From a virus: 64,000 bases of DNA. This document shows, piece after piece, positions 49,277 through 62,645 of this stretch (positions within the stretch are counted from its first letter, which is position 1; every line of letters begins with the position of its first letter). The DNA lies in the IMG/VR virus record IMGVR_UViG_3300034104_005687, positions 285,370-349,369 of that record. One strand, given 5' to 3'. The position numbers were made by a program, and so were the translations under genes. The notes beneath the pieces are model-generated. The model was not told where the DNA came from, made no database searches, and saw only the letters and a list, made by a program, of their open reading frames with translations.

Positions 49277-49908
49277 TGAGTTATATTGTAGGATCGTTAC
49301 CGCCTGTCAAATGTTTTGTCAAACGAGAGTTTCTCTATAACTTTGAAAAGGGTCACGGAGAATTAGAACCTGCAATATGGGTCAGTCTCAAAGCCCTACG
49401 TGGACAAGTGTTTCGTATTGAATCATTACTGCCCAACTACGGAGCACTCTACGACAAACTACCTATTCATGCTTATGTGTGGCAAGAAGACTACTCGGGC
49501 AATTTGCCCGTAGATACACTACAGCTTTGGGACTGCATGGGTTATCGCTTTACTATCATTGAAAAAATAGGCCTGCGTAATCTAGGTGTTAAGTTTCTGG
49601 GCAAAGATCGGGAATGGCATCACGGAACCTATTTGTTTACAGTGGATTTTTGTGCTGACGGCATGGATGTAGACACAGGCTTTACTGAGGTCGCGGAAGA
49701 ACACAAATCGTTTAATTTTATTCGACTGGAAAACGGTCAGTTTGCCTGCCAACCCAACAATCGATGCTTGTGGTACGATCAAAGTTTGATTTCTGGCAAT
49801 GTTAAGTTTCCAGATTTCAAAGCCGCACAGACCATATTCACAGTGGATGGCACACGCAAGTGGTCAGCAGGAGATGATTGGTTTTATTCAATTGAGGAAA
49901 GAAAATGA
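49276..49908 (+). CDS. Hypothetical beta-rich phage protein
   Basis: The 210-residue protein overlaps both neighbours (TAATG and ATGA). It is rich in aromatic residues and strands, with LPIHAYVWQEDYSG and GTYLFTVDFCADGMDVDTGF. The pattern resembles a conserved but unassigned protein of T4-like phages. Position between Bax-inhibitor and AhpD is the only functional hint. Confidence 0.65.
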   Translation: MSYIVGSLPPVKCFVKREFLYNFEKGHGELEPAIWVSLKALRGQVFRIESLLPNYGALYDKLPIHAYVWQEDYSGNLPVDTLQLWDCMGYRFTIIEKIGLRNLGVKFLGKDREWHHGTYLFTVDFCADGMDVDTGFTEVAEEHKSFNFIRLENGQFACQPNNRCLWYDQSLISGNVKFPDFKAAQTIFTVDGTRKWSAGDDWFYSIEERK

Positions 49909-50411
49909 GTTTTATTGAAACAGTAAAAGGCGCATTGCCAGACTATGCCAAAGACACCAAGTTGAATCTTGATGCTGTGCTACTGCGTAGTACTTTAGAT
50001 GCAGATGTGGCCCTGGGCTGTGCTGTGGCTGCACTGGCTGCAACTGGCAACGGAAAGGTACTGGCTGTGTTGTTGGCAGATGCTCCTGAGTTTGCCGACA
50101 GTGCAATGACAGCCGCAAGCATTATGGCTCAGAACAATACCTGGTATCCTTACATTGAAATGGCAGAAGATCCTGCATTAAAAGGGTTGCCGGCACAGTT
50201 GCGTATGAACGCTATTGCCAGCCACGGTGGCACAACCAAGGCCAACTTTGAAGCATTCAGTTTGGCAGCCAGCATTGTGGGCAAGTGCCATTTCTGTGTA
50301 AAAGCACACTATGACACCTTGAAGACAGAAGGCTACACAGTGGAACAACTTCGTGACATTGGACGTATTGCCAGTGTTATGAATGCCGTGGCCAAGGTTC
50401 TCAACAGCTGA
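49905..50411 (+). CDS. ahpD: AhpD-like alkylhydroperoxidase
   Basis: The 168-residue helical protein has the AhpD active site in SIVGKCHFCVKAHYDTLKTE: C-x2-C followed by H three residues later. AhpD reduces AhpC using lipoamide partners in mycobacteria and is paired with AhpC in several proteobacteria. It is the last gene of the ahpC operon and is followed by a strong terminator. Confidence 0.93.
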   Translation: MSFIETVKGALPDYAKDTKLNLDAVLLRSTLDADVALGCAVAALAATGNGKVLAVLLADAPEFADSAMTAASIMAQNNTWYPYIEMAEDPALKGLPAQLRMNAIASHGGTTKANFEAFSLAASIVGKCHFCVKAHYDTLKTEGYTVEQLRDIGRIASVMNAVAKVLNS

Positions 50412-50420
50412 TCAAACAGG

Positions 50421-50469
50421 TTGACTGCTCTACTCAAAGTCCTGTATAATGTGCATACAGGACTTTTTT
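50421..50469 (+). promoter_or_regulatory. Terminator of the ahpC operon with a promoter built into it
   Basis: AGTCCTGTAT (50438-50447) pairs with ATACAGGACT (50455-50464), followed by six T. TTGACT (50421-50426) and TATAAT (50445-50450, 18 bp spacing) place a promoter across the same hairpin, likely driving tRNA-Leu. Confidence 0.75.
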
Positions 50470-50487
50470 ACGATGTAAATAAACAAC

Positions 50488-50571
50488 GCGACTGTGGTGG
50501 AATGGTATACACAGCAGACTTAAAATCTGCCGCCTACGGGATTGAGGGTTCAAGTCCCTCCAGTCGTACCA
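50488..50571 (+). tRNA. tRNA-Leu (TAA)
   Basis: Acceptor GCGACTG pairs with CAGTCGT. The loop CTTAAAA carries TAA, and a long variable arm is present. CCA is encoded. Confidence 0.92.
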
Positions 50572-50582
50572 ACTTGGTATTC

Positions 50583-51149
50583 ATGATGATTAGTTCAAGC
50601 CCCTCCCGTAATACCTTTCAAAAAGAAAAGTATATCGAACGCTGTAAGGAACAAGGCAAAGTGCCCAACAAAGCATATATCAAAATGTACGAACAACACA
50701 ACATTGATAAGTTAGAACGAGAAGAAAATCCAGAATGGCAAAAGAACAATATGGAGTTTGATCTCCGTAGTACCGATTGGATTCTAGCCAAAGTTCGTGC
50801 GTCCGAAGCCTACGCACAGAATCTTTATGCTGCCATGTGCAACCGCGAATTTCAAAAGAATGAAGTATGGCCCTTGTTGAAAAATCAAACCTGGGGTGCC
50901 AGTTGGCGATATGCCGGCGGCATTATCGCCGACATGCGTGGCGAGGGAGACTACATAGACTGGTACTGTTCGGGCATTCAAGGCGGAGTCTCGGAAGCAG
51001 AACTGGCAGAAATGACTGCAGAGCAGCAGGAACGACACCACTGGTATGAAAAAAACTTTGTACCCGAAGGCGTGGTCACTGACGAGATTCGTGCAGACCT
51101 GTTGAAGTTGGGATGGCTAGTAGTGGATGAAAAACAAGACCTTGCGTAA
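50583..51149 (+). CDS. Hypothetical phage protein
   Basis: ATG at 50583 was chosen because the longer frame runs through tRNA-Leu. The 188-residue product has a basic start and GASWRYAGGIIADMRGEGDY in the middle. A C-terminal helix contains EAELAEMTAEQQERHHWYEK. The function is unknown; GASWRYAGG resembles a conserved element of T4-like phage hypotheticals. Confidence 0.65.
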   Translation: MMISSSPSRNTFQKEKYIERCKEQGKVPNKAYIKMYEQHNIDKLEREENPEWQKNNMEFDLRSTDWILAKVRASEAYAQNLYAAMCNREFQKNEVWPLLKNQTWGASWRYAGGIIADMRGEGDYIDWYCSGIQGGVSEAELAEMTAEQQERHHWYEKNFVPEGVVTDEIRADLLKLGWLVVDEKQDLA

Positions 51150-51154
51150 TTTTA

Positions 51155-51162
51155 CATAAATA
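51155..51162 (+). promoter_or_regulatory. Possible late promoter box
   Basis: CATAAATA lies 80 bases before the TctC-like gene at 51243. It is a weak match and no other promoter is evident for that gene. Confidence 0.3.
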
Positions 51163-51242
51163 TTGTTACCATCTGCTCAGATGTGTTATTTTTATTCATC
51201 AGAATAAAATTCATTAACCAAACAAAATTTTCAAGGATATCA

Positions 51243-52151
51243 ATGAAAAAAATTATTTCAGCATTGGCCATTGCTTTGGCATGTTTTTCAGCATCGGCTA
51301 CTCCTACCGCACCGCAAACTGTACAACTAGTTTGGCCTTTTGCTGTTGGGGGTATGGGAGCGATGACCCGAAGTCTTATGGATATTGCCAATCAACAACA
51401 AAGCACATATCAATTTGTGTTTACTCATAAACCAGGTGCCGGCAGCACAGTTGCTGCCAACTATGTGTTGTCTTCAACGTCGTTGACAGTGTTTGCAAAC
51501 TCTGATGGAATGTACACCAGACCACTGATGTACAACGAAAGTCACGATCCGGCTCAATTCCAATTGGTGAGTGCAACGTGCACAAACATTCCATTGGCAA
51601 TCTACAGCCGTCGATACGCATCTGTGGACAACTTAAAAAACAAAGATGTCAGCGTGGGTATTATCCCCGGAACTGCAACTCAATTGTTCACACGCTTGCT
51701 GTCGGCCAACAATCCTGATTTAAAATTCACCGACGTGCCATACAAAGGTATTCCTGAATCAACTGTTGATGTGTTGGGCGGACATGTTGACGCCAATGTT
51801 GCCTTTCTTGGCAAAACAGGCTCTGCGCTGGCTTCAGGAGACGTATCACTTCTTGGTATTTCAGGAACTCGTAGTTTTCCTGGTGCGCCCACTTTTGCAA
51901 GTTTAAAAGTAAAAGGTGTTGAACAATTGACCAATGGTTACTATATCTTTGTTCCACGAACTGTTGATGCAAAAATAGCACAAGACCTCAATAGAATATT
52001 CAACAATGCTGCCAATTCAGATGCTTTCAAAGAAATTTGCACAGGAGAACGCGGGACTGTAGAGTCTGTGACATTTGGACAAACAGAAAAAATGCATCAA
52101 TCCAACATACAGCAATGGACTCGATTCACCCGCGGTATTGCAAAACAGTAA
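51243..52151 (+). CDS. TctC-type periplasmic substrate-binding protein (1)
   Basis: The start at 51243 follows AAGGA and gives a signal peptide (MKKIISALAIALACFSASA). The mature part has VQLVWPFAVGGMGAMTRSL and KPGAGSTVAANYVL, the two ligand-contact loops of tripartite tricarboxylate receptors. LGGHVDANVAFLGKTGS and FPGAPTFASL complete the family pattern. Such receptors are hugely expanded in Burkholderiales and bind carboxylates. No TctA/TctB permease genes are here, so it would feed a host permease or bind a ligand on its own. Confidence 0.85.
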   Translation: MKKIISALAIALACFSASATPTAPQTVQLVWPFAVGGMGAMTRSLMDIANQQQSTYQFVFTHKPGAGSTVAANYVLSSTSLTVFANSDGMYTRPLMYNESHDPAQFQLVSATCTNIPLAIYSRRYASVDNLKNKDVSVGIIPGTATQLFTRLLSANNPDLKFTDVPYKGIPESTVDVLGGHVDANVAFLGKTGSALASGDVSLLGISGTRSFPGAPTFASLKVKGVEQLTNGYYIFVPRTVDAKIAQDLNRIFNNAANSDAFKEICTGERGTVESVTFGQTEKMHQSNIQQWTRFTRGIAKQ

Positions 52152-52205
52152 TTTTGGATAGTTACAGAACTCACCAACAAAAGTACATTTTTATGAATTA
52201 TTTGT

Positions 52206-53477
52206 ATGTACCCACCAGCAGATAAAAATCGTTATGGATACTACACTGTTGGTGATTTCAAAACTTACAGCAAACTGGAAGCCATAGAACTCAGCGGAAA
52301 AATCAAACAACCTCTACAATGGAGATTCAACCAGCCCAAATTTGAGCAGTTTGACTGGACGCACGAACCTCCGGGTAGTTTGGAATTTTGGTACAAACAA
52401 CGGGCACAGCAGCTGAGAGAACAATATGATTATATTGTTATATGGTATTCTGGCGGCGCTGACAGTCACAATGTTCTTATGAGTTTTGTGAGAAACAATA
52501 TTTTTGTCGACGAGATTGCACAATACCACAATCTCAACGGTGACAAAGGCAACAAAAATACATATCTCAACGAAGAAGTATTTGCCACCTCCGCTCCTAT
52601 CACTCAGGATCTAATTGCAAACAATCCACTGTATCGTCATACCAAACACAGATTGGTAGATCTGTCAGACATACAAATGAAGATTCTTAAAGAAGACAGC
52701 AACAAATGGGACTATGTTTACAAAGTAGGAACCCATCCAAGCCCCAATGCACTGGCCAGAAGCTATCTTCGAGAAGTTATACCTGATTATGTTTCTTTAA
52801 TTGAACAAGGCAAACGTGTTTGTTTTTTGTTTGGCGCCGAAAAACCACTGGTACAATATCACAACGCTGATTGGTACGTGGCATTTCAGGACATGCTGGA
52901 CAATGCAGTGAGCCCAAGAACACAGATGTTGAATAGAGCATGGGAACATGACGAACTGTTTTACTGGAGCGATACCATGCCTCAATTGGCTGCAAAACAA
53001 GCTCATGTAGTAAAACGTTTTTTAAGTGGGCTCTCCCCAGAATTAGTTGACAATGTGCATGTTTCTTCTTACAATAAGTTATATGACGAATATGGCAGGA
53101 AAAAAGTAAATTCCTGGTGTGCCAATATTGACGTGAGCGGAATCAAATATCAATTGTTGCCCGATGGCCTTCATCGTTTGATCTACCCTGACTGGAATCC
53201 AATGTCTGTTGTTGCCAATAAGCCTCCGAGTACTTTGTATACTCCAAGAGATACCTGGATGTTTAACTCTGCAGCCCCCGATATTGGACAAAAATACTAT
53301 CATCACGGGTTATTGCATTTGCGACAGTTGGTCAAAAAGGCAGCCCCAGAATATTGGTGGGAATTCAAATATGATCCCGAATCAGGCATGCCATATGTTG
53401 GTGGATTAACGGCATGCTACAATAGGTACTGTCTGACGCCGAAATCAGGAATTGCCCAACCCACAACAATCAAATGA
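52206..53477 (+). CDS. PP-loop ATP pyrophosphatase-like protein (1 of a tandem pair)
   Basis: The 423-residue protein has an N-terminal YGYYTVGDFKTYSKLEAIEL, then QLREQYDYIVIWYSGGADSH with the PP-loop SGGxDS of the adenine-nucleotide alpha hydrolase fold. The remaining 300 residues contain YWSDTMPQLAAKQAHVVKRF and a C-terminal cysteine cluster region. QueC-type zinc cysteines are absent. Such enzymes activate a carboxyl or carbonyl with AMP. The next gene is a diverged copy. The substrate is unknown. Confidence 0.75.
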   Translation: MYPPADKNRYGYYTVGDFKTYSKLEAIELSGKIKQPLQWRFNQPKFEQFDWTHEPPGSLEFWYKQRAQQLREQYDYIVIWYSGGADSHNVLMSFVRNNIFVDEIAQYHNLNGDKGNKNTYLNEEVFATSAPITQDLIANNPLYRHTKHRLVDLSDIQMKILKEDSNKWDYVYKVGTHPSPNALARSYLREVIPDYVSLIEQGKRVCFLFGAEKPLVQYHNADWYVAFQDMLDNAVSPRTQMLNRAWEHDELFYWSDTMPQLAAKQAHVVKRFLSGLSPELVDNVHVSSYNKLYDEYGRKKVNSWCANIDVSGIKYQLLPDGLHRLIYPDWNPMSVVANKPPSTLYTPRDTWMFNSAAPDIGQKYYHHGLLHLRQLVKKAAPEYWWEFKYDPESGMPYVGGLTACYNRYCLTPKSGIAQPTTIK

Positions 53478-54703
53478 ACCATTACAATACTCAATTTTTT
53501 GATGTAACGCTGGAACAAAATTTCAAGTTAGGATATTATCAAGTTGGCAATCAAATTTATGTCAGCAAAGTCCAAGCCTTGATGGAAGCCACCAAAACCA
53601 ACCAGTTTCCACATTGGAATTTCAACAACGAAGTTTTTTCCAAACAGGCCTGGACTGCGGAGCCTGAAGTCAATATAAGAGAACTGTATAGACTGCGAGC
53701 TCAGCAACTGCGTGACAAGTATGACTACATCAGAATTGAATGCAGCGGCGGCGGAGACAGCACACAGGTAGTCTACAATTTTTTGCTCAACAACATTCAT
53801 GTTGACGAAATTTTGGTTCGATATCCCAAGGCCGGCGAACACAACATCAAAAAAGACCCCTTCAACTTCAGAGTAGAAAATCATCTCAGTGAATATGAAT
53901 ATGCTGCTCGACCACTGTTGAACTGGGTCAAAACAAATTTTCCCAAAGTAAAAATCACTGTCCATGACTACAGTGAAGACATGTTGAACGACACAGACCG
54001 TGACGAATCTTGGGTGTATGCTGCCAAGGACTTTTTGCAACCAGCACACGTGACCAAGTTCACCACATATCATACCATGGATCAACGAACCCTGGTGGAC
54101 CAAGGCAAAAAGATTTGCATATTGTACGGTATTGACAAACCCAAAATTTGCCACAAAGACGGCAAATGGTATTTGTATTTTATAGATTTTCAAGCCAACT
54201 ATGCCAATTCGGATGTTGGAGAATACAACAATATCACCAATGAATATTTTTTCTGGACTCCAGATTTCCCTGAGATACTGTTGAAGCAAGCACACATCAT
54301 TGTGAAATGGTTTAATCAACCAGCCAACCGTCATTTACAGTATCTGGCCAGATGGCCTAATCACAGTAATTTACAACGCACAGCATACGAAGCCTGTGTC
54401 AAACCCCTGATTTATGTAGATTACGATCCTGCCACTTTTCAGGTAGCCAAGCCTATTACTAATTTTTACAGTGAAATGGACCATTGGTTCTATACCAATT
54501 TCAAGGATCACAAACTGTACAGTAGTTGGAAAGCAGGCATTGACTTTGTTGAACGCACCATAGACAACAAATATTTCAACAAAGAATTCGGACGCAATAT
54601 CGGATTTATTGGATTCTTGAGTCCCTTCTACTATATCAGAGACGTAGAGCACGGCCAGGATCAACACATCAAGTTAGCAACAAATAACTTTGACAGATTT
54701 TGA
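53474..54703 (+). CDS. PP-loop ATP pyrophosphatase-like protein (2 of a tandem pair)
   Basis: The 409-residue protein shares the layout of the preceding gene: LGYYQVGNQIYVSKVQALM near the start, QLRDKYDYIRIECSGGGDST for the PP-loop, and FFWTPDFPEILLKQAHIIVK in the middle. It overlaps the first copy by four bases. The divergence suggests a heterodimer or two substrates. The pair sits between two TctC genes. Confidence 0.75.
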   Translation: MNHYNTQFFDVTLEQNFKLGYYQVGNQIYVSKVQALMEATKTNQFPHWNFNNEVFSKQAWTAEPEVNIRELYRLRAQQLRDKYDYIRIECSGGGDSTQVVYNFLLNNIHVDEILVRYPKAGEHNIKKDPFNFRVENHLSEYEYAARPLLNWVKTNFPKVKITVHDYSEDMLNDTDRDESWVYAAKDFLQPAHVTKFTTYHTMDQRTLVDQGKKICILYGIDKPKICHKDGKWYLYFIDFQANYANSDVGEYNNITNEYFFWTPDFPEILLKQAHIIVKWFNQPANRHLQYLARWPNHSNLQRTAYEACVKPLIYVDYDPATFQVAKPITNFYSEMDHWFYTNFKDHKLYSSWKAGIDFVERTIDNKYFNKEFGRNIGFIGFLSPFYYIRDVEHGQDQHIKLATNNFDRF

Positions 54704-54759
54704 CTCACTAAGTACAAAGCAACGCCGCACTGCCGACGTCGGACAACATATTGACGCTT

Positions 54760-54778
54760 GAGGTACAAAAACCTCTTT
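54760..54778 (+). terminator. Weak hairpin after the PP-loop genes
   Basis: GAGGT (54760-54764) pairs with ACCTC (54771-54775) across ACAAAA, followed by three T. The T run is short, so termination is uncertain. Confidence 0.4.
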
Positions 54779-54840
54779 ACTGCTGTGATACATGCAGAAC
54801 GCCAATTCCCGTAAGTAGAAAATCTACCAGCCAAACATCA

Positions 54841-54869
54841 TTGACAAATTCACACAGAATTTGTATAAT
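54841..54869 (+). promoter_or_regulatory. Perfect sigma-70 promoter for the second TctC gene
   Basis: TTGACA (54841-54846), 17 bp, TATAAT (54864-54869), followed by TTGGAG before the ATG at 54890. Confidence 0.88.
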
Positions 54870-54889
54870 TTTACATTGGAGAAACAAAC

Positions 54890-55798
54890 ATGAAAAAACT
54901 TTTAACTGCTGTGGTTCTGTCCATGGCCGCACTGAGTGCAAATGCCAAAGAAACCATTCAAATCATCTATGGGTTTGGAGCCGGTGACAACAGCACCAAC
55001 TATGCTCGCAACATGGCCGCAGAAGCCAACAAAATTCAAAACAAATACAATTTTGTGTTTGACGTCAAGTCCGGCGGCGGACAAGTCGTGGCCTTTAACT
55101 ATGTGAAAAATACGTCAGGTGCAATTTTTATGACATCGGGTGCATATTGGCTGCGACCCAATTTCTATCCCACAGCAAGTTATGATGTCAACGAATTTCG
55201 CACCATCATGACACAATGCAGTGTGCCGTTTGCTGTGGCATCCAAGAAGCATGCCAACTGGGCCAGTGTGCCCAAAAATCAGCCAATTACCATTGCCACC
55301 TCGGGGCTGGGAGTGGTCAGTCATTTGACAGCATTGCAAATTCAAAAGATATATCCCAACTCCACTATTGTGCCATACAAGAGCACTTCCGAAGCATTGG
55401 TTGCCACAATGTCAGGACAAGTTGATCTTGTAGTGGGTTTTGTAGGCGACATCGAAAAATACACACAAGAAGGATTTGCTGGAAAACTAACTACCTTGGG
55501 CACCACCGGTCCCAAGTTTGTGGGCAACTATCCTAACTTGACCAGTCAGGGATTCCCTGCACCGCTGGCCAAGATGAATACTCCCTACAACTTGATGGTG
55601 CCACGATCTTTTCCTGAAGACAAAGCCAAAGAAATTCGTGAAATCTTGTTGTCGGTGGAAAACAAAAAATCAGTACGTGATGCATATGCACTGGACCATT
55701 GCCAGCCTTTCCAAGTACCTGCAAAGGATCTTGGCACCTGGTGGAACGAGCAAAATCAATACTGGTCTGGTTTGACTGTTGGCGTCAAGATTGATTAA
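54890..55798 (+). CDS. TctC-type periplasmic substrate-binding protein (2)
   Basis: The 302-residue protein has a signal peptide (MKKLLTAVVLSMAALSANA). Ligand loops are IIYGFGAGDNSTNYARNMA and VKSGGGQVVAFNYVKN, diverged from the first copy. ATMSGQVDLVVGFVGDIEKY corresponds to the conserved GG-H-D segment. A consensus promoter and a good ribosome binding site suggest strong expression. Like the first copy it lacks permease partners. The ligand is unknown. Confidence 0.85.
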   Translation: MKKLLTAVVLSMAALSANAKETIQIIYGFGAGDNSTNYARNMAAEANKIQNKYNFVFDVKSGGGQVVAFNYVKNTSGAIFMTSGAYWLRPNFYPTASYDVNEFRTIMTQCSVPFAVASKKHANWASVPKNQPITIATSGLGVVSHLTALQIQKIYPNSTIVPYKSTSEALVATMSGQVDLVVGFVGDIEKYTQEGFAGKLTTLGTTGPKFVGNYPNLTSQGFPAPLAKMNTPYNLMVPRSFPEDKAKEIREILLSVENKKSVRDAYALDHCQPFQVPAKDLGTWWNEQNQYWSGLTVGVKID

Positions 55799-55804
55799 AT
55801 AAAA

Positions 55805-55871
55805 GTTATTGCTGTATGAAGCAAAGAGAAAAGTGTCTTGGACGGGGGTGCGAATCCCCCCAGGTCCACCA
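55805..55871 (+). ncRNA. ssrA: Permuted tmRNA, acceptor piece
   Basis: This holds the 3' half of a tmRNA upstream of its 5' half. The T arm is GGGGG-TGCGAAT-CCCCC (55844-55860), followed by CAGGTCC, discriminator A and CCA (55869-55871). CAGGTCC pairs over 7 bp with GGGCCTG at 55993. GTGTCTT (55833-55839) can pair with AAGACAT (56151-56157) of the coding piece. The 5' end is approximate. Confidence 0.85.
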
Positions 55872-55883
55872 ATAAGGATGATT

Positions 55884-55991
55884 ATGAACGTTACACAAAC
55901 ATTAAAAGTTACAGGCTATCTAGTAGGTGCATACATTGCTTACAAGTTAGGTCTTGAAGTGTGGTGTGTTGTTTATGGACTGCTTTATTGA
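55884..55991 (+). CDS. Short membrane peptide in the tmRNA intervening segment
   Basis: A 35-residue frame with AAGGA seven bases upstream encodes a peptide with one hydrophobic helix (VTGYLVGAYIAYKLGLEVW). It fills almost the whole spacer between the two tmRNA pieces and stops one base before the coding piece. The hydrophobic design and the ribosome binding site argue for translation, but it is short and could be chance. Confidence 0.45.
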   Translation: MNVTQTLKVTGYLVGAYIAYKLGLEVWCVVYGLLY

Positions 55992-55992
55992 T

Positions 55993-56157
55993 GGGCCTGA
56001 CCTAGATTCGACAGGGCAACAAGTAAATTAGTGGACAGCTCGGCAATGTGAAAGCCGTTAGGGTTGGGAGAACTCGGCCGTAGAAGCAAAAAAAGTAACC
56101 GCAAACGACTCACAGTTCGCATTGGCAGCTTGAACAAGGCTACCTAGGGTAAGACAT
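55993..56157 (+). ncRNA. ssrA: Permuted tmRNA, coding piece
   Basis: It begins GGGCCTGACCTAGATTCGAC, matching the conserved tmRNA 5' end. The tag frame at 56101-56130 encodes ANDSQFALAA and ends in TGA (56131-56133). The ending LAA is the usual protease-recruiting end. Its 5' acceptor strand pairs with the acceptor piece upstream, so the gene is circularly permuted and would mature into a two-piece tmRNA. The exact 3' end is uncertain. Confidence 0.9.
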
Positions 56158-56176
56158 ACCTCGTAACAGAAACTCC

Positions 56177-56203
56177 AAAAAGGCGTCAAAATACGCCTTT
56201 TTT
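56177..56203 (+). terminator. Rho-independent terminator after tmRNA
   Basis: AAAAAGGCGT pairs with ACGCCTTTTT across CAAAAT; a T run follows. Confidence 0.85.
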
Positions 56204-56204
56204 G

Positions 56205-56234
56205 TTGACTTAGTTAGTAAAACCACTATATACT
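56205..56234 (+). promoter_or_regulatory. Sigma-70 promoter for the porin
   Basis: TTGACT (56205-56210), 18 bp, TATACT (56229-56234). AAAGGA precedes the ATG at 56279. Confidence 0.75.
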
Positions 56235-56278
56235 TGTCTATGGTCGACTTTGATCATACTTTCTAAAGGAAAAATCTA

Positions 56279-57160
56279 ATGAAGAAAATTTTAGTTACAG
56301 CCGCTTTGTTGGCTACTTGTGCTCTGGCTTCTGCACAAACTACTGTGTACGGTCGGATGAACGCCACAGTTGACAACACCAAAACAGGTGCCAGCACTGT
56401 CAACAGCATCGCCAACGATATCAGCCACATTGGCTTTCGTGTACAAGAAAATATCGGCAAGGGCTTGACAGCTCGTGCTGTGATCGAAACTGGCATTAAC
56501 AGCCAAGATCCCACCGGTGGTACAGACACACAGCTGGGCAATCGCCACAGCACTGTGGGTCTTGTTGCCAAAGCAGGTAGCCTGGACCTAGGACGTAGAA
56601 CTCACGGCATCTTTACCACTGCTGCCGACAATGATTCTTTTGGCGCACTGTACGGCAGTATTGCTGGTGATGTACACAATCTACGTGGCAATCGACTCAG
56701 CAACGGCGTGTTTGCTCGTGTTACTGCTTTTCCCGGTGTAGCATTGGGTGCTGACCGTACTCATACTGCTGCCGGTCAAGAAGTCACTGTATACAGTGCC
56801 GGCGCCAAGTTTGGCATTGTCAACACCAGTGTTGCTCAATTTGATCAAGGTGCCGAAAAGAGCACAATGCTTGGCGCCAATGCCAAGTTTGGTGCAACCA
56901 CTGTGTTTTACAGCCACAGTGACAATCAAGGCGTTGTTGCCAACAAAGGCAACTTGGTTGGCGCTGCTCAAAAAGTAGGTGCTTACACCCTCAAGGCCAG
57001 CTATGGCAAGACCAACGCCGATGTTGAAGCCTACAATGTTGGTGCTGAGTATGCACTCAGCAAACGTACTGATCTCTTGGTCAGCTATCGCAACGTTGAC
57101 AAAACAGGTTCTGTCAACGACGTCAAACAGGTTGGCGTAGGCGTTACACATCGCTTCTGA
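56279..57160 (+). CDS. Outer-membrane porin (Gram-negative porin family)
   Basis: The 293-residue protein has a signal peptide (MKKILVTAALLATCALASAQ), then TTVYGRMNATVDN, the typical first strand of Burkholderiales trimeric porins. Alternating amphipathic strands follow, with GRRTHGIFTTAADND and SRVTAF-like turns. It closes with QVGVGVTHRF, where the terminal Phe is the signal for BAM-mediated assembly. It is shorter than usual host porins (about 350-400 residues), so a 16-strand barrel would have short loops. It has its own promoter and terminator. A porin in a phage could replace a receptor or raise nutrient entry. Confidence 0.9.
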   Translation: MKKILVTAALLATCALASAQTTVYGRMNATVDNTKTGASTVNSIANDISHIGFRVQENIGKGLTARAVIETGINSQDPTGGTDTQLGNRHSTVGLVAKAGSLDLGRRTHGIFTTAADNDSFGALYGSIAGDVHNLRGNRLSNGVFARVTAFPGVALGADRTHTAAGQEVTVYSAGAKFGIVNTSVAQFDQGAEKSTMLGANAKFGATTVFYSHSDNQGVVANKGNLVGAAQKVGAYTLKASYGKTNADVEAYNVGAEYALSKRTDLLVSYRNVDKTGSVNDVKQVGVGVTHRF

Positions 57161-57178
57161 TTTCAGTAGTGTACTAAC

Positions 57179-57200
57179 AAAACCCGCCGAGGCGGGTTTT
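57179..57200 (+). terminator. Rho-independent terminator after the porin
   Basis: AAAACCCGC pairs with GCGGGTTTT across CGAG, followed by CTTTTT. Confidence 0.85.
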
Positions 57201-57222
57201 CTTTTTGATTAAATTGTCGGGT

Positions 57223-57256
57223 CTGTAACAAAATTGTAACAGTCTTCGTCTTAAAT
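57223..57256 (+). promoter_or_regulatory. Pho box promoter upstream of the PlcP-like gene
   Basis: CTGTAAC-AAAA-TTGTAAC (57223-57240) has two TGTAAC half sites 11 bp apart, the layout of a PhoB box. It is followed by exactly 10 bp and TTAAAT (57251-57256) as -10. The ATG is five bases after the -10, so the message would be leaderless. The pstS promoter has the same layout. Confidence 0.75.
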
Positions 57257-57261
57257 AATAG

Positions 57262-58143
57262 ATGAAGACATATCGCTCAATCTTTGTCAGTGATGTCCAT
57301 CTTGGAACCAAAGATTGTCAAGCCGATCGTCTCAATAACTTTCTCAAACACAACACCTGTGACACACTGTATCTAGTAGGCGATATTATCGATGCCTGGA
57401 AGATACAACAAAACAAATGGCGCTGGAAACAAAGCCATACCAACGTGGTACGCAGAGTACTGGGTCATGCCAAGCGCGGAACCCGTGTAGTATTCATAGC
57501 AGGCAATCACGATGAATTCCTTAGGCCCATGATACCTTATGGTTTCAGTTTTGGTTTAATAGAAATACACAATCAAACGGAACACATAGGCGCAGATGGT
57601 AAGCACTACTTAGTTGTTCACGGTGACTTGTTTGACGGCATCACCCGCCTAGCACCATGGATAGCATTCTTAGGAGATAAAGCATATGATGTTGTTCTTG
57701 CACTCAACAATAAATTTAATTGGATTCGTCGTCGCATGGGTTTTGGGTACTTTAGCCTTAGCCGGTATCTTAAGTACAAAGTTAAAAAAGCAGTAGACTT
57801 TGTGTTCAAGTTTGAAGAGAATTTAGCCAACTACTGCAAAAAGCGTGGCTTTGATGGAGTCATCTGCGGACACATACATCACGCAGAAATAAAAGAAATC
57901 AACGGTGTCGCATACATGAATGATGGCGACTGGGTTGAATCGTGTACAGCACTTGTAGAACATCACGATGGCCGTTGGGAAATCGTAACTTGGACCAAGG
58001 AGAGCGACCATGTGGATACTGATAATACTGGCAGTGCATCTAAACAATCCAAAAGACATTCCAGGACGGGTAATGATAGAATTTCCTACCCTCCAGGACT
58101 GCGAGCGAGCTCGGTCAACAATGACCAGTTGGCTAAAATTTGA
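57262..58143 (+). CDS. PlcP/LpxH-like metallophosphoesterase
   Basis: The 293-residue protein has all calcineurin-type metal motifs: FVSDVHLGT, YLVGDIIDAW, FIAGNHDEF, VVHGDLFDG and CGHIHHAEI. This group includes UDP-2,3-diacylglucosamine hydrolases, and PlcP, a Pho-regulated phospholipase that strips phosphate headgroups from lipids in phosphate-starved bacteria. The Pho box and the downstream glycosyltransferase favour PlcP, but sequence alone does not separate the two. The last 45 residues overlap another gene and look like tail sequence. Confidence 0.85.
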   Translation: MKTYRSIFVSDVHLGTKDCQADRLNNFLKHNTCDTLYLVGDIIDAWKIQQNKWRWKQSHTNVVRRVLGHAKRGTRVVFIAGNHDEFLRPMIPYGFSFGLIEIHNQTEHIGADGKHYLVVHGDLFDGITRLAPWIAFLGDKAYDVVLALNNKFNWIRRRMGFGYFSLSRYLKYKVKKAVDFVFKFEENLANYCKKRGFDGVICGHIHHAEIKEINGVAYMNDGDWVESCTALVEHHDGRWEIVTWTKESDHVDTDNTGSASKQSKRHSRTGNDRISYPPGLRASSVNNDQLAKI

Positions 58144-58183
58144 TAACTTCAAGGTGGTAGCAGAATGCAAGAAACAACTCTAA
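58010..58183 (+). CDS. Small protein overlapping the PlcP-like gene
   Basis: A 57-residue frame in a different reading frame has AAGGAG (57997-58002) seven bases before its ATG. It begins MWILIILAVHLNNPKDIPGR and has a later CERARSTMTSWLKFDNFKVV. It ends 19 bases inside the glycosyltransferase gene. The ribosome binding site and the protein-like pattern support translation. The hydrophobic start could be a membrane anchor. The function is unknown. Confidence 0.65.
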   Translation: MWILIILAVHLNNPKDIPGRVMIEFPTLQDCERARSTMTSWLKFDNFKVVAECKKQL

Positions 58184-58884
58184 GCGACACAATTACCATA
58201 GTGGTACCCTGTAAGAATGAGGAGAACTATATTGCACATTTATTAATGCACCTACGCCAGCAGTCAATAGGTCGTACTAGAATTATCATTGCCGACTGTT
58301 CAACAGACCGCACTCGAGAAGTTATAGAAATAATGAAAGGTGAATTGAATGTTGAAATCATTGAGGGCGGGCCTGTTTCTACTGCCAAGAACCGTGGAGC
58401 ACAACTGGTCACCACTCCCTACATCTTGTTCGTTGACGCTGATGTACGTTTCTTCAAAGACACAGTCATCCGTGATGCTGTTGACCTAATAGAGTCTAAA
58501 AACCTAGATCTTATCGGCCTGAATATCAAATGCTATGACAAGGACCTACGAGCAAAGATTGGATTCACTGCATTTAATTTAATCAATCATGCATTAAAAT
58601 ACTTTTCGCCATTTGCTGTAGGAGCGTTCATGCTGACCCGCAGAGATCGTTTTGAAGAGTATGGCGGCTTTCCTGAACAATTTTCCACCAGCGAAGACTT
58701 CTTCTTGTCAAGAAAGTACAATCCTCGAAAGTTCAAAATTGTAAAACATTACTTTGGACAGGATAGTCGTAGATTTAAGAAGATGGGTTATTTTGGGATG
58801 GGCAAATACCTAATAAAGAACTTTGTTAATCGCAACAACCAGGCATATTGGAACCGTTTGGACGGATCCAAATACTGGTCATAA
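58165..58884 (+). CDS. Family 2 glycosyltransferase
   Basis: The 239-residue protein begins TITIVVPCKNEENYIAHLLM, a typical GT2 start. RIIIADCSTDRTREV and ILFVDADVRFF provide the donor and DxD metal sites, and GGFPEQFSTSEDFFLSRKY the ED acceptor motif. It follows the Pho-controlled PlcP-like gene. In PlcP systems a glycosyltransferase (Agt) converts the released diacylglycerol to glycolipid, and this protein could fill that role. That function is inference. Confidence 0.8.
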   Translation: MQETTLSDTITIVVPCKNEENYIAHLLMHLRQQSIGRTRIIIADCSTDRTREVIEIMKGELNVEIIEGGPVSTAKNRGAQLVTTPYILFVDADVRFFKDTVIRDAVDLIESKNLDLIGLNIKCYDKDLRAKIGFTAFNLINHALKYFSPFAVGAFMLTRRDRFEEYGGFPEQFSTSEDFFLSRKYNPRKFKIVKHYFGQDSRRFKKMGYFGMGKYLIKNFVNRNNQAYWNRLDGSKYWS

Positions 58885-58886
58885 TT

Positions 58887-58920
58887 TTGTAACAAAATTG
58901 TAATATTATTCTACTTAAAT
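58887..58920 (+). promoter_or_regulatory. Pho box promoter upstream of pstS
   Basis: TTGTAAC-AAAA-TTGTAAT (58887-58904), then 10 bp and TTAAAT (58915-58920). Half-site spacing (11 bp), gap and -10 are the same as at 57223. AAGGAG (58935-58940) precedes the GTG start. Confidence 0.8.
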
Positions 58921-58946
58921 AATTTTGTCACAACAAGGAGAACCCA

Positions 58947-59951
58947 GTGAACAAACTACTAGCAATTTTATTAGCCGCAGTAACGGTGTCAGCACAAGCT
59001 GCAGACATCACAGGCGCAGGCGCCACTTTCCCGTTCCCAATCTATGCCAAGTGGGCTGAAGCCTACAAGAAAGAAACAGGCATTGGGCTCAACTATCAAT
59101 CAATTGGATCATCGGGCGGCATTAGACAAATCAATTCCAGGACTGTGACGTTTGGCGCAACAGACGCACCTGTTAAGGGCGAAGATCTTGACAAGAATGG
59201 TCAAGTGCAGTTTCCGGCCATCATTGGTGGTACTGTGCCTATTGTTAACTTAGATGGTTTCAAGCCAGGCGAACTACGCATCACAGGACCTGTTATGGCT
59301 GAAGTGTTCATGGGCAACATCTCTAAATGGAATGACCCTAAACTAACAGCATTGAATCCAGGTAAGAATTTACCTAACGAACCAATCACAGTGGTTCACC
59401 GCGCTGATGGTTCAGGCACAACATTCAACTGGACTGACTATCTAAGCACAGTCAGCAAAGAGTTCAATGATAAAGTAGGAAAAGGTGCCGCAGTTAAATG
59501 GCCGGCTGCCACTTCAATTGGTGGCAAAGGCAATGAAGGTGTTGCTGCCAACGTCAACAGAGTTAAGGGCAGTATTGGTTATGTAGAGTATGCTTATGTT
59601 AAGAAAAACAACATGACGTTCCTACAACTACAAAACAAGTCAGGAAAGTATGTTAGCCCAGATGACTTAACATTTGCCGCAGCCGCAGATGGCGCCGATT
59701 GGTTCTCAGTACCTGGCATGGGATTAAGCATTGTTGATCAACGTAATCCTAATGCTTGGCCAGTGAGTTCAGCCAGTTTCATCATCATGTACAAGACTCC
59801 TGCTAACAAAGCCAATAGCGATGAAGTGTTAAAGTTCTTTGACTGGGCATTCAAGAACGGCAAGAAAGATGCTGTAGATTTAGACTACGTGCCATTGCCT
59901 GATGCTCTAACAAAGCAGATCCGTGAACGTGTTTGGACTCAGATCAAGTAA
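58947..59951 (+). CDS. pstS: Phosphate ABC transporter substrate-binding protein PstS
   Basis: The 334-residue protein starts at GTG, with signal peptide NKLLAILLAAVTVSAQA. GAGATFPFPIYAKW, YQSIGSSGGIRQI and FGATDAPV are PstS phosphate-binding hallmarks, and HRADGSGTTFNW completes the site. It binds phosphate in the periplasm for the host PstCAB transporter. Phage pstS genes controlled by host PhoB are known in cyanophages; here the Pho box is visible. No pstC/A/B genes are in the window. Confidence 0.95.
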   Translation: MNKLLAILLAAVTVSAQAADITGAGATFPFPIYAKWAEAYKKETGIGLNYQSIGSSGGIRQINSRTVTFGATDAPVKGEDLDKNGQVQFPAIIGGTVPIVNLDGFKPGELRITGPVMAEVFMGNISKWNDPKLTALNPGKNLPNEPITVVHRADGSGTTFNWTDYLSTVSKEFNDKVGKGAAVKWPAATSIGGKGNEGVAANVNRVKGSIGYVEYAYVKKNNMTFLQLQNKSGKYVSPDDLTFAAAADGADWFSVPGMGLSIVDQRNPNAWPVSSASFIIMYKTPANKANSDEVLKFFDWAFKNGKKDAVDLDYVPLPDALTKQIRERVWTQIK

Positions 59952-59997
59952 ATCGACCACAACGATAGAGTGGCGCTGGAACTCGTAACCAGCATGC

Positions 59998-60023
59998 AAA
60001 AAGGCTACTTTGATAGCCTTTTT
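59998..60023 (+). terminator. Rho-independent terminator after pstS
   Basis: AAAAAGGCTA pairs with TAGCCTTTTT across CTTTGA. Confidence 0.88.
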
Positions 60024-60025
60024 CT

Positions 60026-60054
60026 TTGACTTTTTTGTTGCAGGCATATATAAT
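60026..60054 (+). promoter_or_regulatory. Sigma-70 promoter, start codon at the predicted transcript start
   Basis: TTGACT (60026-60031), 17 bp, TATAAT (60049-60054). An ATG lies at 60060. Confidence 0.8.
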
Positions 60055-60059
60055 GCACT

Positions 60060-60158
60060 ATGATGACAGCAATCGCATTCACCGTGAAAAACATACCGGC
60101 CATTTGTGAGCAGGCCTATGAGCATGATTACCCGCGAGGTCTTTGTCGTTGTAGTTAA
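60060..60158 (+). CDS. Possible leader peptide
   Basis: A 32-residue frame would be translated from a leaderless message. It overlaps the 5' half of a long RNA stem (GGTCTTTG at about 60138) that competes with the terminator downstream. The peptide has three cysteines at its end (GLCRCS and ICEQ). It may be a regulatory leader rather than a functional protein. Confidence 0.35.
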   Translation: MMTAIAFTVKNIPAICEQAYEHDYPRGLCRCS

Positions 60159-60181
60159 CAAAAGTACTACATTCTGCAAAG

Positions 60182-60206
60182 ACCCGCACACTAGGCGGGT
60201 TTTTTT
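60182..60206 (+). terminator. Rho-independent terminator with possible attenuator
   Basis: ACCCGC pairs with GCGGGT, followed by seven T. CAAAGACC, partly inside the terminator stem, can instead pair with GGTCTTTG about 45 bases upstream, giving two exclusive folds. Confidence 0.75.
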
Positions 60207-60213
60207 ATGGCGG

Positions 60214-60242
60214 TAGACACAATATTCACAATTTGCTACAAT
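60214..60242 (+). promoter_or_regulatory. Sigma-70-like promoter before the non-coding stretch
   Basis: TAGACA (60214-60219), 17 bp, TACAAT (60237-60242). Confidence 0.55.
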
Positions 60243-60704
60243 AGAAACAAGTTAGGAAATACAGCAAAGTTTGCAAAGACCCTACAAATTGAAGGGCTTT
60301 TGCAAAACAAGTTGACCAGTAAAACACAAGATGTTATACTAGAGACTAGTTAGGAAATAGTAGATCGAGACTGTTTTCAAAGTTCGTTAAAAAATTCAAG
60401 TTTGTATAGTGTACTCGGGCTTGCTCGGGCACTATATGTAAACACATTAAGGTTACCTACACTGTTAGGGGTGAACGAAAAGGCGTTGAAGAAGTACTTC
60501 GGTACACGGCCTTGATACCCATGAAGCAGGAAGCCCGAAATAGATACCTGAGCCTATACCAAAGGCAACGAGCGGTTGAAATAGGGAACAACTTCTGGGA
60601 ATGCGACAGGCTAAACAGTAGGCTGTAATGAGAAAAAATGTAAACTAACAGGTGGTGCTGAGTTTATATCCTCCCTTAATGTTTTTTCATATAGTGATTT
60701 TTTT
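60243..60704 (+). ncRNA. Candidate large structured non-coding RNA region
   Basis: No protein frame is credible across 460 bases between promoters and the first array tRNA. TTGCAAAGACCC can pair with GGGCTTTTGCAA, and AGTACTTCGGTAC forms a tetraloop hairpin. GTGTACTCGGGC and GCTCGGGCACTATA suggest further pairing. Position beside a phage tRNA array resembles large ornate RNAs such as GOLLD or ROOL, but I cannot match a family by eye. Confidence 0.45.
60312..60340 (+). promoter_or_regulatory. Sigma-70 promoter inside the non-coding stretch
   Basis: TTGACC (60312-60317), 17 bp, TATACT (60335-60340). It could start the structured RNA or the tRNA array. Confidence 0.7.
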
Positions 60705-60780
60705 GGTCTTAAAGTGTTCATGGACGCACGATGGCTTGTCACGCCATAAGAGTGGGGATCGTTACCCCCTAAGACCGCCA
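60705..60780 (+). tRNA. tRNA-Asp (GTC)
   Basis: Acceptor GGTCTTA pairs with TAAGACC. The stem ATGGC/GCCAT frames loop TTGTCAC. The T loop is atypical (ATCGTTA) and one T-stem pair is mismatched. CCA is encoded. Confidence 0.75.
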
Positions 60781-60786
60781 AGTTTT

Positions 60787-60851
60787 GAGAGCCACATCGC
60801 CCTGATACTTCCCTCGGTAACGAGGCACTAGGTCTTGCAACCGTGGCTCTC
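60787..60851 (+). other. Long-range hairpin between tRNA genes
   Basis: GAGAGCCAC pairs with GTGGCTCTC (9 bp) around an inner CCTCGGTAACGAGG hairpin, followed by CTCTTTTT. It could be a terminator or processing signal. Confidence 0.5.
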
Positions 60852-60859
60852 CTCTTTTT

Positions 60860-60934
60860 GCTGGGTTCGTCTATCGGTTAGGACACAAGCCTTTCACGTT
60901 TGTAAGACGGGTTCGATTCCCGTACCCAGTACCA
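60860..60934 (+). tRNA. tRNA-Glu (TTC)
   Basis: Acceptor GCTGGGT pairs with ACCCAGT. The loop CTTTCAC carries TTC at 60893-60895. CCA is encoded. Confidence 0.9.
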
Positions 60935-60938
60935 TTTT

Positions 60939-61024
60939 GGAGATGTAGGAAAATTGGTAACCCCAGTGGACTGTAAATCCGCCGCCTTACGGCACTACTG
61001 GTTCGACTCCAGTCGTCTCCACCA
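60939..61024 (+). tRNA. tRNA-Tyr (GTA)
   Basis: Acceptor GGAGATG pairs with CGTCTCC. The loop CTGTAAA carries GTA, and a long variable arm suits tRNA-Tyr. CCA is encoded. Confidence 0.92.
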
Positions 61025-61392
61025 ATGAACGTTCCGGGTGTCTCCGGATAGTGTGACCCACACGATGAGAAGTTGAGTGACATCAACGGGTGGTAGTCTT
61101 TGAACCCAAAGGCCGCTGGCAATGCGAGAACGGTCCCTGTCGGGAAGCGGGTGGAAGGTACGTGTGATGGGTACGATAGCGTCGTATCTTGATGTACTAC
61201 AATTACCGCCGGGGGATGCAGAGCATTTTTGTTTTTATAGTCAAGCATCGATACAGGTATCGTGACAGGACGCTGTCACTATTCGGGCCTAACTGTGCGA
61301 GGAACAGGTCCTGACATAACTGCTATTCGCTTGTCAGTGTTAGCTACATTGTTGACAAATCGGCATCTCTCGGTGCTTGACTATAAAAATAT
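61025..61392 (+). other. 368-bp non-coding, hairpin-rich stretch
   Basis: No protein is credible. Clear hairpins include GTGTGACCCACAC, CTTTGAACCCAAAG, GATACAGGTATC and GTGACAGGACGCTGTCAC. The density of perfect stems suggests a structured RNA or several small ones. No family is recognised. Confidence 0.45.
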
Positions 61393-61470
61393 GTAGGGGT
61401 GGCAGAGTGGTCAAATGCAACGGATTGCAAATCCGTAAAGCCGTGAGTTCAAATCTCACTCCCTACTCCA
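61393..61470 (+). tRNA. tRNA-Cys (GCA)
   Basis: Acceptor GTAGGGG pairs with TCCCTAC. The loop TTGCAAA carries GCA at 61427-61429. CCA is encoded. Confidence 0.88.
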
Positions 61471-61557
61471 TTGATAAACACATTCACAGATCCGCCCTGT
61501 TACCTAGGGAGTCAGCGAGTAACCGCTTATGGACTGTTCAAGAGTGTGTTTTTCAAT
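61471..61557 (+). repeat. Inter-tRNA element with AAACACATT/GTGTGTTT terminal stem (copy 1)
   Basis: TTGATAAACACA near the start pairs with TGTGTTTTTCAA at the end, enclosing a GC-rich core. A similar closing stem occurs at 63393-63474 and in part at 62150. Confidence 0.45.
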
Positions 61558-61649
61558 GGGAGTGAGACTTGGTAGTCAGAGAGGTCTTATATACCTTTTA
61601 GCGCCAGATTAGCGTTCTTGAGAGAGTTCGATCCTCTCCACTCCTACCA
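61558..61649 (+). tRNA. tRNA-like gene with TAT anticodon and long variable arm
   Basis: Acceptor GGGAGTG pairs with CACTCCT and CCA is encoded. GAGGT-CTTATAT-ACCTT gives anticodon TAT (61588-61590, Ile ATA codons). An extra arm AGCGC-CAGATTA-GCGTT follows, making 92 bases. The long arm is unexpected for isoleucine. The D arm is also unusual. An alternative reading uses the second hairpin as the anticodon arm (GAT), but it lacks U33. Confidence 0.5.
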
Positions 61650-61659
61650 TAAATAATGG

Positions 61660-61735
61660 CGCAGTGTGTTAGAAGCGGTATCTGGCAAGGCTCATAACCT
61701 TGAGGTCGGGGGTTCGATTCCCTCCACTGCAACCA
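61660..61735 (+). tRNA. tRNA-Met (CAT), initiator-like
   Basis: Acceptor CGCAGTG faces CACTGCA, leaving a C1-A72 mismatch, the hallmark of initiator tRNA. The anticodon stem CAAGG/CCTTG frames CTCATAA. It lacks the full three G-C pairs of canonical initiators. CCA is encoded. Confidence 0.8.
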
Positions 61736-61744
61736 ATTTGAGTC

Positions 61745-61793
61745 GTGTGATATAAATATCACACAAGAGCTTCTTGAGGTCAACCTCAAGAAG
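61745..61793 (+). other. Two perfect hairpins in tandem
   Basis: GTGTGATAT/ATATCACAC (61745-61764) is followed by CTTCTTGAGG/CCTCAAGAAG (61770-61793, loop TCAA). There is no T run, so these may be processing sites or RNA stabilisers rather than terminators. Confidence 0.6.
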
Positions 61794-61815
61794 TAAATAA
61801 AGTACAATAGGACTT

Positions 61816-61956
61816 ATGATGCAAACAATCATTCATTCACAGTTAAAATCCGCAATGTGCCCCCAGACACTGGTCTGGTCACGCGGCTTTACATCTGCGA
61901 ATAGTATTCCAGGGTCACCTGGGTCCTTTGAAGGCGAGAAGATTCTAAAAGTCTAA
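61816..61956 (+). CDS. Possible short protein between tRNA genes
   Basis: A 46-residue frame starts ATGATG, with AGGA eight bases upstream, and contains CPQTLVWSRGFTSANSIPGS. It is followed 20 bases later by a strong terminator. Its own transcription unit shape is suggestive, but the codons show no clear coding bias. Confidence 0.35.
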   Translation: MMQTIIHSQLKSAMCPQTLVWSRGFTSANSIPGSPGSFEGEKILKV

Positions 61957-61975
61957 CTCGCACAAATTCAAAAGG

Positions 61976-62006
61976 ACCCCGGGACTAAAAACCCCGGGGT
62001 TTTTCT
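61976..62006 (+). terminator. Strong Rho-independent terminator
   Basis: ACCCCGGG pairs with CCCGGGGT across a nine-base loop, followed by TTTTCTTTT. Confidence 0.88.
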
Positions 62007-62100
62007 TTTAGTGCAACGGCAACGCGAGCCGGCAACACTCTAAACTGCAAATGGGCGGCCTGTAGGATGGAGCACTTCTTCTAGTGTGAAAAATTACAGC

Positions 62101-62176
62101 GTATTAAAGCATTCTTTAAGAACAGGCAGCCTAAGTATTTTAGAGTGCTTTAATACACACATTCCTAAGAGTGTGT
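62101..62176 (+). repeat. Hairpin element before tRNA-Ala with ACACATT/AGTGTGT (partial copy)
   Basis: GTATTAAAGCA (62101-62111) pairs perfectly with TGCTTTAATAC (62146-62156). ACACATTCCTAAGAGTGTGT follows as a second hairpin that resembles the ends of the elements at 61471 and 63393. Confidence 0.5.
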
Positions 62177-62186
62177 TTGAAAATTT

Positions 62187-62261
62187 GGGCTGATAGTGAT
62201 AATGGGAGCACAGTGGCTTTGCAAGCCTCGGGTCGGGGTTCGATCCCCCGTCGGTCCACCA
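62187..62261 (+). tRNA. tRNA-Ala (TGC)
   Basis: Acceptor GGGCTGA pairs with TCGGTCC and includes the alanine identity pair G3-U70. The loop TTTGCAA carries TGC. One anticodon stem mismatch is present. CCA is encoded. Confidence 0.85.
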
Positions 62262-62266
62262 AATAG

Positions 62267-62340
62267 GTATCCATAGTGTAATGGCAGCATCGCGGTCTCC
62301 AAAACCGTCAGTCTAGGTTCGAGTCCTAGTGGGTACGCCA
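62267..62340 (+). tRNA. tRNA-Trp (CCA)
   Basis: Acceptor GTATCCA pairs with TGGGTAC. The loop CTCCAAA carries CCA. The 3' CCA is encoded. Confidence 0.9.
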
Positions 62341-62348
62341 AGTTTTGT

Positions 62349-62422
62349 TCGGGTATAGTGTAATGGTAACACCACAGACTTTGACTCTGTTATTCTAGGT
62401 TCGAGCCCTAGTACCCGTGCCA
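62349..62422 (+). tRNA. tRNA-Gln (TTG)
   Basis: Acceptor TCGGGTA faces TACCCGT, with an open first pair as common in tRNA-Gln. The loop CTTTGAC carries TTG. CCA is encoded. Confidence 0.88.
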
Positions 62423-62430
62423 GTTTCGTT

Positions 62431-62504: not shown

Positions 62505-62549
62505 ATTTTTGTAGGCGGTCACAGAGCCGTCTATAAGTAAAAAGTTCAT

Positions 62550-62639: not shown

Positions 62640-62645
62640 GAATAT

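Follow-up and report, generated by a model that had tools for sequence, protein, structure and literature searches.

A circularly permuted tmRNA gene in a large phage genome whose intervening segment probably doubles as a protein-coding cassette

The permuted tmRNA locus

The stretch of DNA analysed here, referred to below as the window, comprises 64,000 nucleotides and forms the end of a 349,369-base IMG/VR record (IMGVR_UViG_3300034104_005687, positions 285,370 to 349,369). It contains a circularly permuted tmRNA gene, in which the acceptor half, with the T arm and an encoded CCA, lies upstream of the 5' half that encodes the tag ANDSQFALAA. This order, proposed in an initial annotation made from the sequence, is borne out by the sequence and by ARAGORN, which calls a permuted tmRNA (tmRNA*) at 55779-56224 with the same tag. 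The intervening segment (IVS) between the two halves contains an open reading frame (ORF). Compared loci are labelled with L-numbers (for example L115). The features of the locus are as follows.

55807-55871, + strand: tmRNA 3' (acceptor) piece, upstream; 5' border approximate (RF04321 matches from 55810, the fold pairs from 55807, and 95% identity to L115 runs from 55807)
55834-55840, + strand: P2 helix, strand of the 3' piece (covariation above swapped controls; predicted fold)
55844-55860, + strand: T arm with a 5-bp stem and the loop UGCGAAU (sequence, Rfam)
55861-55867, + strand: acceptor stem, 3' strand CAGGUCC (sequence, Rfam, fold)
55868-55871, + strand: discriminator A (55868) and encoded CCA (55869-55871) (sequence)
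55872-55992, + strand: IVS of 121 nt, which, by analogy with known permuted tmRNAs, the mature tmRNA would lack
55870-55877, + strand: IVS closing helix, 5' strand CAAUAAGG, made up of the last two CCA bases and the Shine-Dalgarno AAGG (fold; closing helices covary in relatives)
55874-55878, + strand: Shine-Dalgarno-like AAGGA, 5 nt upstream of the ATG (sequence)
55884-55991, + strand: IVS ORF of 35 aa, MNVTQTLKVTGYLVGAYIAYKLGLEVWCVVYGLLY, with stop UGA at 55989-55991; read from 55878 instead, it would be 37 aa long
55983-55990, + strand: IVS closing helix, 3' strand CUUUAUUG, overlapping the last codons of the ORF and the UG of its UGA (fold)
55989-55992, + strand: UGAU at the IVS end, complementary to ACCA with one C:A mismatch and supplying the stop codon (TGAT ends of relatives; fold)
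55993-55999, + strand: acceptor stem, 5' strand GGGCCUG, with the RNase P cut expected directly upstream (sequence, Rfam, fold)
56012-56018, + strand: P2 helix, strand of the 5' piece (covariation)
56101-56133, + strand: tag frame ANDSQFALAA with stop UGA (ARAGORN)
56180-56204, + strand: terminal stem-loop followed by a T run (sequence; RF01850 terminal helix)

Both Rfam covariance models accept the fold. RF04321 (tmRNA_permuted) scores 112 bits over 55810-56133 (cut-off 47), and RF01850 (beta_tmRNA) scores 91.6 bits over 55759-56203, a margin of only 7.6 bits above its cut-off of 84. Together with the ARAGORN call, the covarying P2 helix and a terminase in the record (8.8e-17), these matches uphold the initial reading of a two-piece permuted tmRNA in a phage-like genome. 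The proposed 7-bp acceptor stem at 55861-55867/55993-55999 is likewise present, with a G:U at its third pair (G55995:U55865, equivalent to G3:U70), which is the alanine identity pair. T-loop position 55 is a G, the T arm is continuous, and no group I intron was found in the T loop. The initial annotation named a second CCA-bearing 3' half downstream as evidence that would count against its reading. No second permuted-tmRNA match was found in the whole record, and ARAGORN makes no other tmRNA call within the window.

The P2 helix (55834-55840/56012-56018) covaries in relatives: 21 of 23 distinct strand pairs form all seven base pairs, and the mean is 6.91, as against 5.45 with swapped partners (maximum 6.13). 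A further pairing of 55833-55839 with 56151-56157, also part of the initial annotation, was abandoned: its seven bases are complementary, yet across 121 distinct relatives the value for the best such pairing is 6.10, versus 6.11 with swapped partners, and the bases belong to P2 with 56012-56018. A generic promoter and terminator scan gave nothing useful, and the stem-loop at 56180-56204 was absent from its output.

In the IVS, a Shine-Dalgarno sequence follows directly after the CCA, and the UGA lies one base before the acceptor stem. The Shine-Dalgarno-led ORF at 55884-55991 covers at least 70% of the IVS; in the 37-codon reading from the upstream ATG, it takes up 0.94 of the segment (p=0.002 against dinucleotide shuffles). 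The predicted microprotein is partly hydrophobic, with a borderline hydropathy of 1.46. No database homologue was found, and among named phages there were no convincing relatives (best E 4). A pattern scan for relatives returned L115 and one unrelated match, L136. The tmRNA gene of L115, which comes from another metagenome, is 95.4% identical to that of the window over 302 nt; the two other matches between the window and L115 are at 72-75%. The two ORFs differ by two synonymous changes and one nonsynonymous change, three differences being too few for a selection test.

In the predicted precursor fold, the acceptor stem extends into A55868-U55992 and the 8-bp helix 55870-55877/55983-55990. The CA of the CCA pairs with the first two bases (UG) of the ORF's stop codon, the Shine-Dalgarno AAGG is buried and the AUG is paired. 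The z-score of this fold is modest (-1.67).

Intervening segments in related loci

A sample blind to the IVS was collected with a 32-base T-arm/acceptor stretch, for which IMG/VR has at least 120 matching stretches. Of 126 loci examined with ARAGORN, 94 receive a permuted-tmRNA call; among the other 32 are five that had been collected on different grounds (L002-L006) and contigs that end within the gene. Among 84,980 species genomes of bacteria and archaea, a slightly looser form of the T-arm pattern had only four matches, all in the Kazan division, and this form of the T arm is therefore mainly viral. With a detector demanding a perfect 7-bp acceptor stem, 178 of 239 loci proved to contain a permuted gene; their IVSs comprise 130 distinct sequences, 25 to 491 nt long. 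Because the same contig recurs in a few loci, IVS counts are mostly given by distinct sequence or cluster; re-assembly of related metagenomes may account for some of the contigs.

ORFs that are 20 codons or longer and span at least 70% of the IVS are present in 24 of 65 clusters (41 of 110 loci) of the IVS-blind sample and absent from the other 41 clusters, in both cases among the matches listed. In an enlarged sample, part of which was selected for CCA, Shine-Dalgarno and ATG, such ORFs occur in 44 of 68 clusters of at least 75 nt, versus a mean of 4.7 and a maximum of 10 in 300 sets with shuffled interiors and preserved ends. The stop codon lies exactly 1 nt before the IVS end in 26 of the 44 clusters and 12 nt before it in eight; four more stop at 9, 11 or 13 nt, and six run into the 5' half. 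RF04321 exceeds its cut-off in 19 of 20 ORF-bearing loci scanned, with L059 falling below it. The 24 clusters that were not counted include several with shorter or paired ORFs, as well as L020, L066, L084 and L121, whose ORFs are long and follow a different leader. In these four, ATAAATACTA or a close variant, which we take to be T4-late-promoter-like, stands directly 5' of the IVS-ORF ATG, and a similar motif is found 4-5 nt upstream of the ATG in a few other genes of the same contigs.

The closing helix has a mean of 9.84 bp in 126 IVSs of at least 50 nt versus 5.51 with swapped partners (maximum 6.03); by the same measure the window's helix is 6, below the average of its relatives. Of the 130 distinct IVS sequences, 115 have TGAT at their end. 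Given these ends and the closing helices, UGAU is best explained as the complement of ACCA, and the IVS ORFs appear to have taken it over as a stop codon. In a single bacterial control, the permuted tmRNA of a Microvirga plasmid, the IVS also ends in TGAT and by eye has no apparent ORF.

Several ORF-less IVSs of 55-174 nt (L017, L105, L133-L135 and others) have a strongly structured look, and no other Rfam family was found inside such segments in the 20 loci scanned. The IVS of L081 bears a likeness to a decayed tRNA T arm. A tree of the tmRNA halves (123 rows) had unsettled bootstrap values, long branches and mosaic genes, and was kept out of the evidence.

Coding evidence in the IVS ORFs

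Nine groups of IVS ORFs have pN/pS values of 0.15-0.32, against 0.71-6.4 in frame-shift controls, one of which is undefined. Summed over pairs, the values are 0.20 for the CxxCxxCC group (6 sequences), 0.29 for MKYTALCP (9), 0.24 for KKxxPISKEEW (4), 0.32 for LxENLAKDL (3), 0.25 for MNDxL (4), 0.28 for MDxxYS (4), 0.15 for a 123-aa ORF (2), 0.20 for the L036/L062 ORF1 group (3) and 0.23 for MDPEV (2). The MFENW and L023 groups contain too few differences for the calculation. Judged by these ratios, the testable sister groups are under purifying selection.

The products are unrelated to one another and include a thioredoxin, a GNAT protein, the CxxCxxCC protein and membrane microproteins. Pfam matches above cut-off were obtained for the thioredoxin (4.1e-21), GNAT (2.1e-6), CxxCxxCC (1e-5) and Oxidored-like (6.7e-12) products; in the last, the start codon is ambiguous and the frame is, by eye, open across the T arm. 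For most of the other IVS products tried, no Pfam family rose above cut-off. Strongly hydrophobic products are found in 15 of the 24 clusters with products of up to 45 aa, versus 2 of the 20 clusters with larger ones.

Capture and exchange of IVS genes

A thioredoxin survey kept 80 viral loci of 203 that passed. Among these 80 of 203 loci, a thioredoxin gene lies within a permuted tmRNA in L270-L272 (by the detector) and L279 (by reading; RF04321, 83.1 bits), and six close relatives of the gene, in L273-L278, are free-standing. The free-standing proteins end in ...KV or ...KA followed by AAA-TAA (lysine and stop). The IVS copy of L270 continues as ...KV-S-L to the UGA of the IVS end, and that of L279 terminates at a TAA of its own, 13 nt short of the IVS end. 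The gene presumably moved from a free-standing position into the IVS. In L271, the 5' half of the thioredoxin-bearing tmRNA apparently lacks the stretch between GACAGGG and the tag.

The CxxCxxCC segments of L099, L231, L233 and L236 are 92-99% identical, with identities of 56-89% in the 3' halves and 41-65% in the 5' halves of the surrounding tmRNA genes, and the 2.5-kb flanks of these loci do not match one another. L011 is more distant, with an IVS identity of 75-76%. In L236 the two acceptor strands, CGGGTCC and GGGCCCG, are compensated, which argues against a chimaeric assembly. The detector places 10 of the 12 viral loci encoding the CxxCxxCC protein in a permuted tmRNA; the remaining two contigs, L235 and L239, end within or just past the ORF. 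No relatives of the protein were found in named phages. The L062 IVS contains two ORFs, one resembling that of L036 and the other that of L027. We read the IVS as an exchangeable protein-gene cassette.

Comparison with known tmRNA systems

Permuted tmRNAs of phages are already published, and the accessible text of PMC9004378 gives two-piece forms for 53 of 133 unique phage tmRNA structures. The window shares gene order, acceptor stem, T arm, TTCGAC, P2 and tag frame with the two-piece tmRNAs of RF04321 and RF01850, but differs from them in the protein ORF borne by its IVS and in the G at T-loop position 55.

The nearest cultured case is Methylophilales phage Melnitz (MZ577097), whose permuted tmRNA is described in the accessible part of PMC9004378 and whose 142-nt IVS was found here to contain a Shine-Dalgarno-led ORF. 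Unlike that of the window, this ORF runs past the IVS end into the 5' half. In the Melnitz record, SsrA is the sole annotation of this stretch, and no mention of the ORF was found in the accessible part of PMC9004378. The ORF is identical in four isolates, and beyond these no relative of the Melnitz tmRNA was found among named phages; compared with L363, the ORF has a pN/pS of 0.38 and an in-frame 8-codon indel. A scan for Melnitz-type genes found two permuted genes in 120 loci. Melnitz is the only one of nine named phages examined (X1, Rb1, QDWS359, Melnitz, HTVC008M, CcrRogue, QDWS595, XacN1 and Bohxovirus) with a Shine-Dalgarno-led IVS ORF; PaBG gave no match. XacN1 (AP018399) has two equal-scoring permuted-tmRNA copies, at 37231 and 356026, possibly in terminal repeats.

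Other cargo has been described in a 2025 tmRNA database paper (PMC11915505), the accessible portion of which reports a tRNA-Ala gene in the permuted-tmRNA IVS of GCA-2688965, a nominally archaeal bin, calls it unique, and notes a repeat element in another IVS. As in the window, a gene lies inside the IVS of GCA-2688965, but it encodes a tRNA and not a protein. The same portion describes an intron-form tmRNA with a homing-endonuclease ORF, which also places a protein ORF in a segment removed from the tmRNA. There the T loop is interrupted by a group I intron that splices itself out, whereas in the present case the ORF lies in a processed IVS and the cargo consists of unrelated proteins. The open-access literature searched contained no report of permuted tmRNAs with protein genes in the IVS, and the protein-coding IVS of a phage permuted tmRNA looks new.

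Genomic context

A phage DNA polymerase is encoded in the window. SmpB (PF01668) had no match in the 349-kb record, which is possibly incomplete; if the record is near complete, the phage would therefore depend on host SmpB. Host-like genes near the tmRNA (window positions 48581-59951) include two TctC receptors, a porin, a phosphate-binding-like protein, Bax inhibitor-1 and a member of the carboxymuconolactone decarboxylase family. The window has 24 tRNA calls (47572-63968), of which 21 form a dense array (60705-63968).

Interpretation

The locus is most likely a large-phage gene for a circularly permuted tmRNA whose IVS serves at the same time as a protein-coding cassette. We are highly confident of the protein-coding IVS group and less so of the window's own ORF, which appears to be a protein gene on weaker evidence, with one relative to compare. 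In the proposed mechanism, the transcript would fold so that the acceptor stem and the adjoining closing helix bracket the IVS, hiding the Shine-Dalgarno sequence of the ORF and base-pairing UGAU to the CCA end. The two-piece tmRNA would then be released by the RNase P and 3'-end processing of the host; cleavage of permuted tmRNA transcripts by tRNA-processing enzymes is described in the accessible part of PMC11915505. The by-product would be a mini-mRNA extending from the Shine-Dalgarno sequence to one base past the stop codon, which in the window would encode a partly hydrophobic microprotein of 35 aa. Sister phages carry other genes in the slot, which seems to have taken up a thioredoxin and is swapped between tmRNA backbones. 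The permuted anatomy, the conserved reading frames of sister families, the two forms of the thioredoxin gene and the exchange of IVSs are seen in the sequences themselves. Excision and translation of the segment, their timing, a function for the microprotein and the use of host SmpB by the tmRNA are all presumed in this scheme.

A more far-reaching version, that the IVS is a dedicated, exchangeable gene-capture slot with expression tied to tmRNA maturation, is tentative. Processing would free an mRNA with a formerly buried Shine-Dalgarno sequence and with the anti-CCA UGAU as stop codon. Where the frame misses the UGA, as in six of the 44 clusters and in Melnitz, a stopless mRNA would result, and its product might be tagged by the tmRNA from which it came, a built-in timer. 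The question raised is whether a tmRNA can police the mRNA from which it is cut.

Among simpler accounts, the window could hold an ordinary phage permuted tmRNA with a frame open by chance in its 121-nt IVS. The three changes in a single relative, the borderline hydropathy and the majority of IVS-blind segments without an ORF, among the matches listed, all suit this account, but it is unlikely given a frame that nearly fills the IVS behind a well-spaced Shine-Dalgarno sequence, a UGA position shared with 26 of the 44 ORF clusters and sister ORFs that are clearly coding. It is also quite unlikely that the RNA is a decoy or an altered rescue RNA, for example one titrating host SmpB or tagging host proteins: the complete tag frame with its LAA end and the presence of all core elements speak against this. 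In its favour are the unusual T loop (G55), whose pattern matched only the four Kazan-division records among the bacterial and archaeal genomes scanned, and a phage RNA barely exceeding the tRNA-like domain, cited in the accessible part of PMC4131195 as similar to a tmRNA inhibitor.

The intact tag frame, G3:U70 and CCA would fit a tmRNA that only keeps ribosome rescue under phage control, the role suggested in the initial annotation, with an IVS that has no role. This is improbable, since SmpB had no match in the record and unrelated protein genes occupy the IVS across the group; a rescue role may exist alongside the IVS cargo. Bacterial contamination or chimaeric assembly might be suspected in a metagenomic record with host-like neighbours such as TctC and porin genes. 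The terminase in the same record, the DNA polymerase in the window, the near-identical gene in the separate metagenome of L115 and the compensated acceptor pair of L236 across an exchanged IVS make such an artefact extremely improbable.

If the cassette reading is correct, a spacer regarded as processing waste would hold a protein gene in many environmental phages, combining RNA maturation and protein expression in a single gene. It would also be a new place for small phage proteins that annotation can miss, as in Melnitz, where only the tmRNA is annotated. The thioredoxin gene provides a case of one gene seen both free-standing and in the slot.

Additional observations on tags

At L014, L053, L044, L054, L069, L083 and L163, ARAGORN predicts conserved tags of 27-31 aa (for example ANVNKTVTVSGKNIKFSARSAKEALAV), versus the usual 10. 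At other loci the tags end in LMAA, MVA or LAV.
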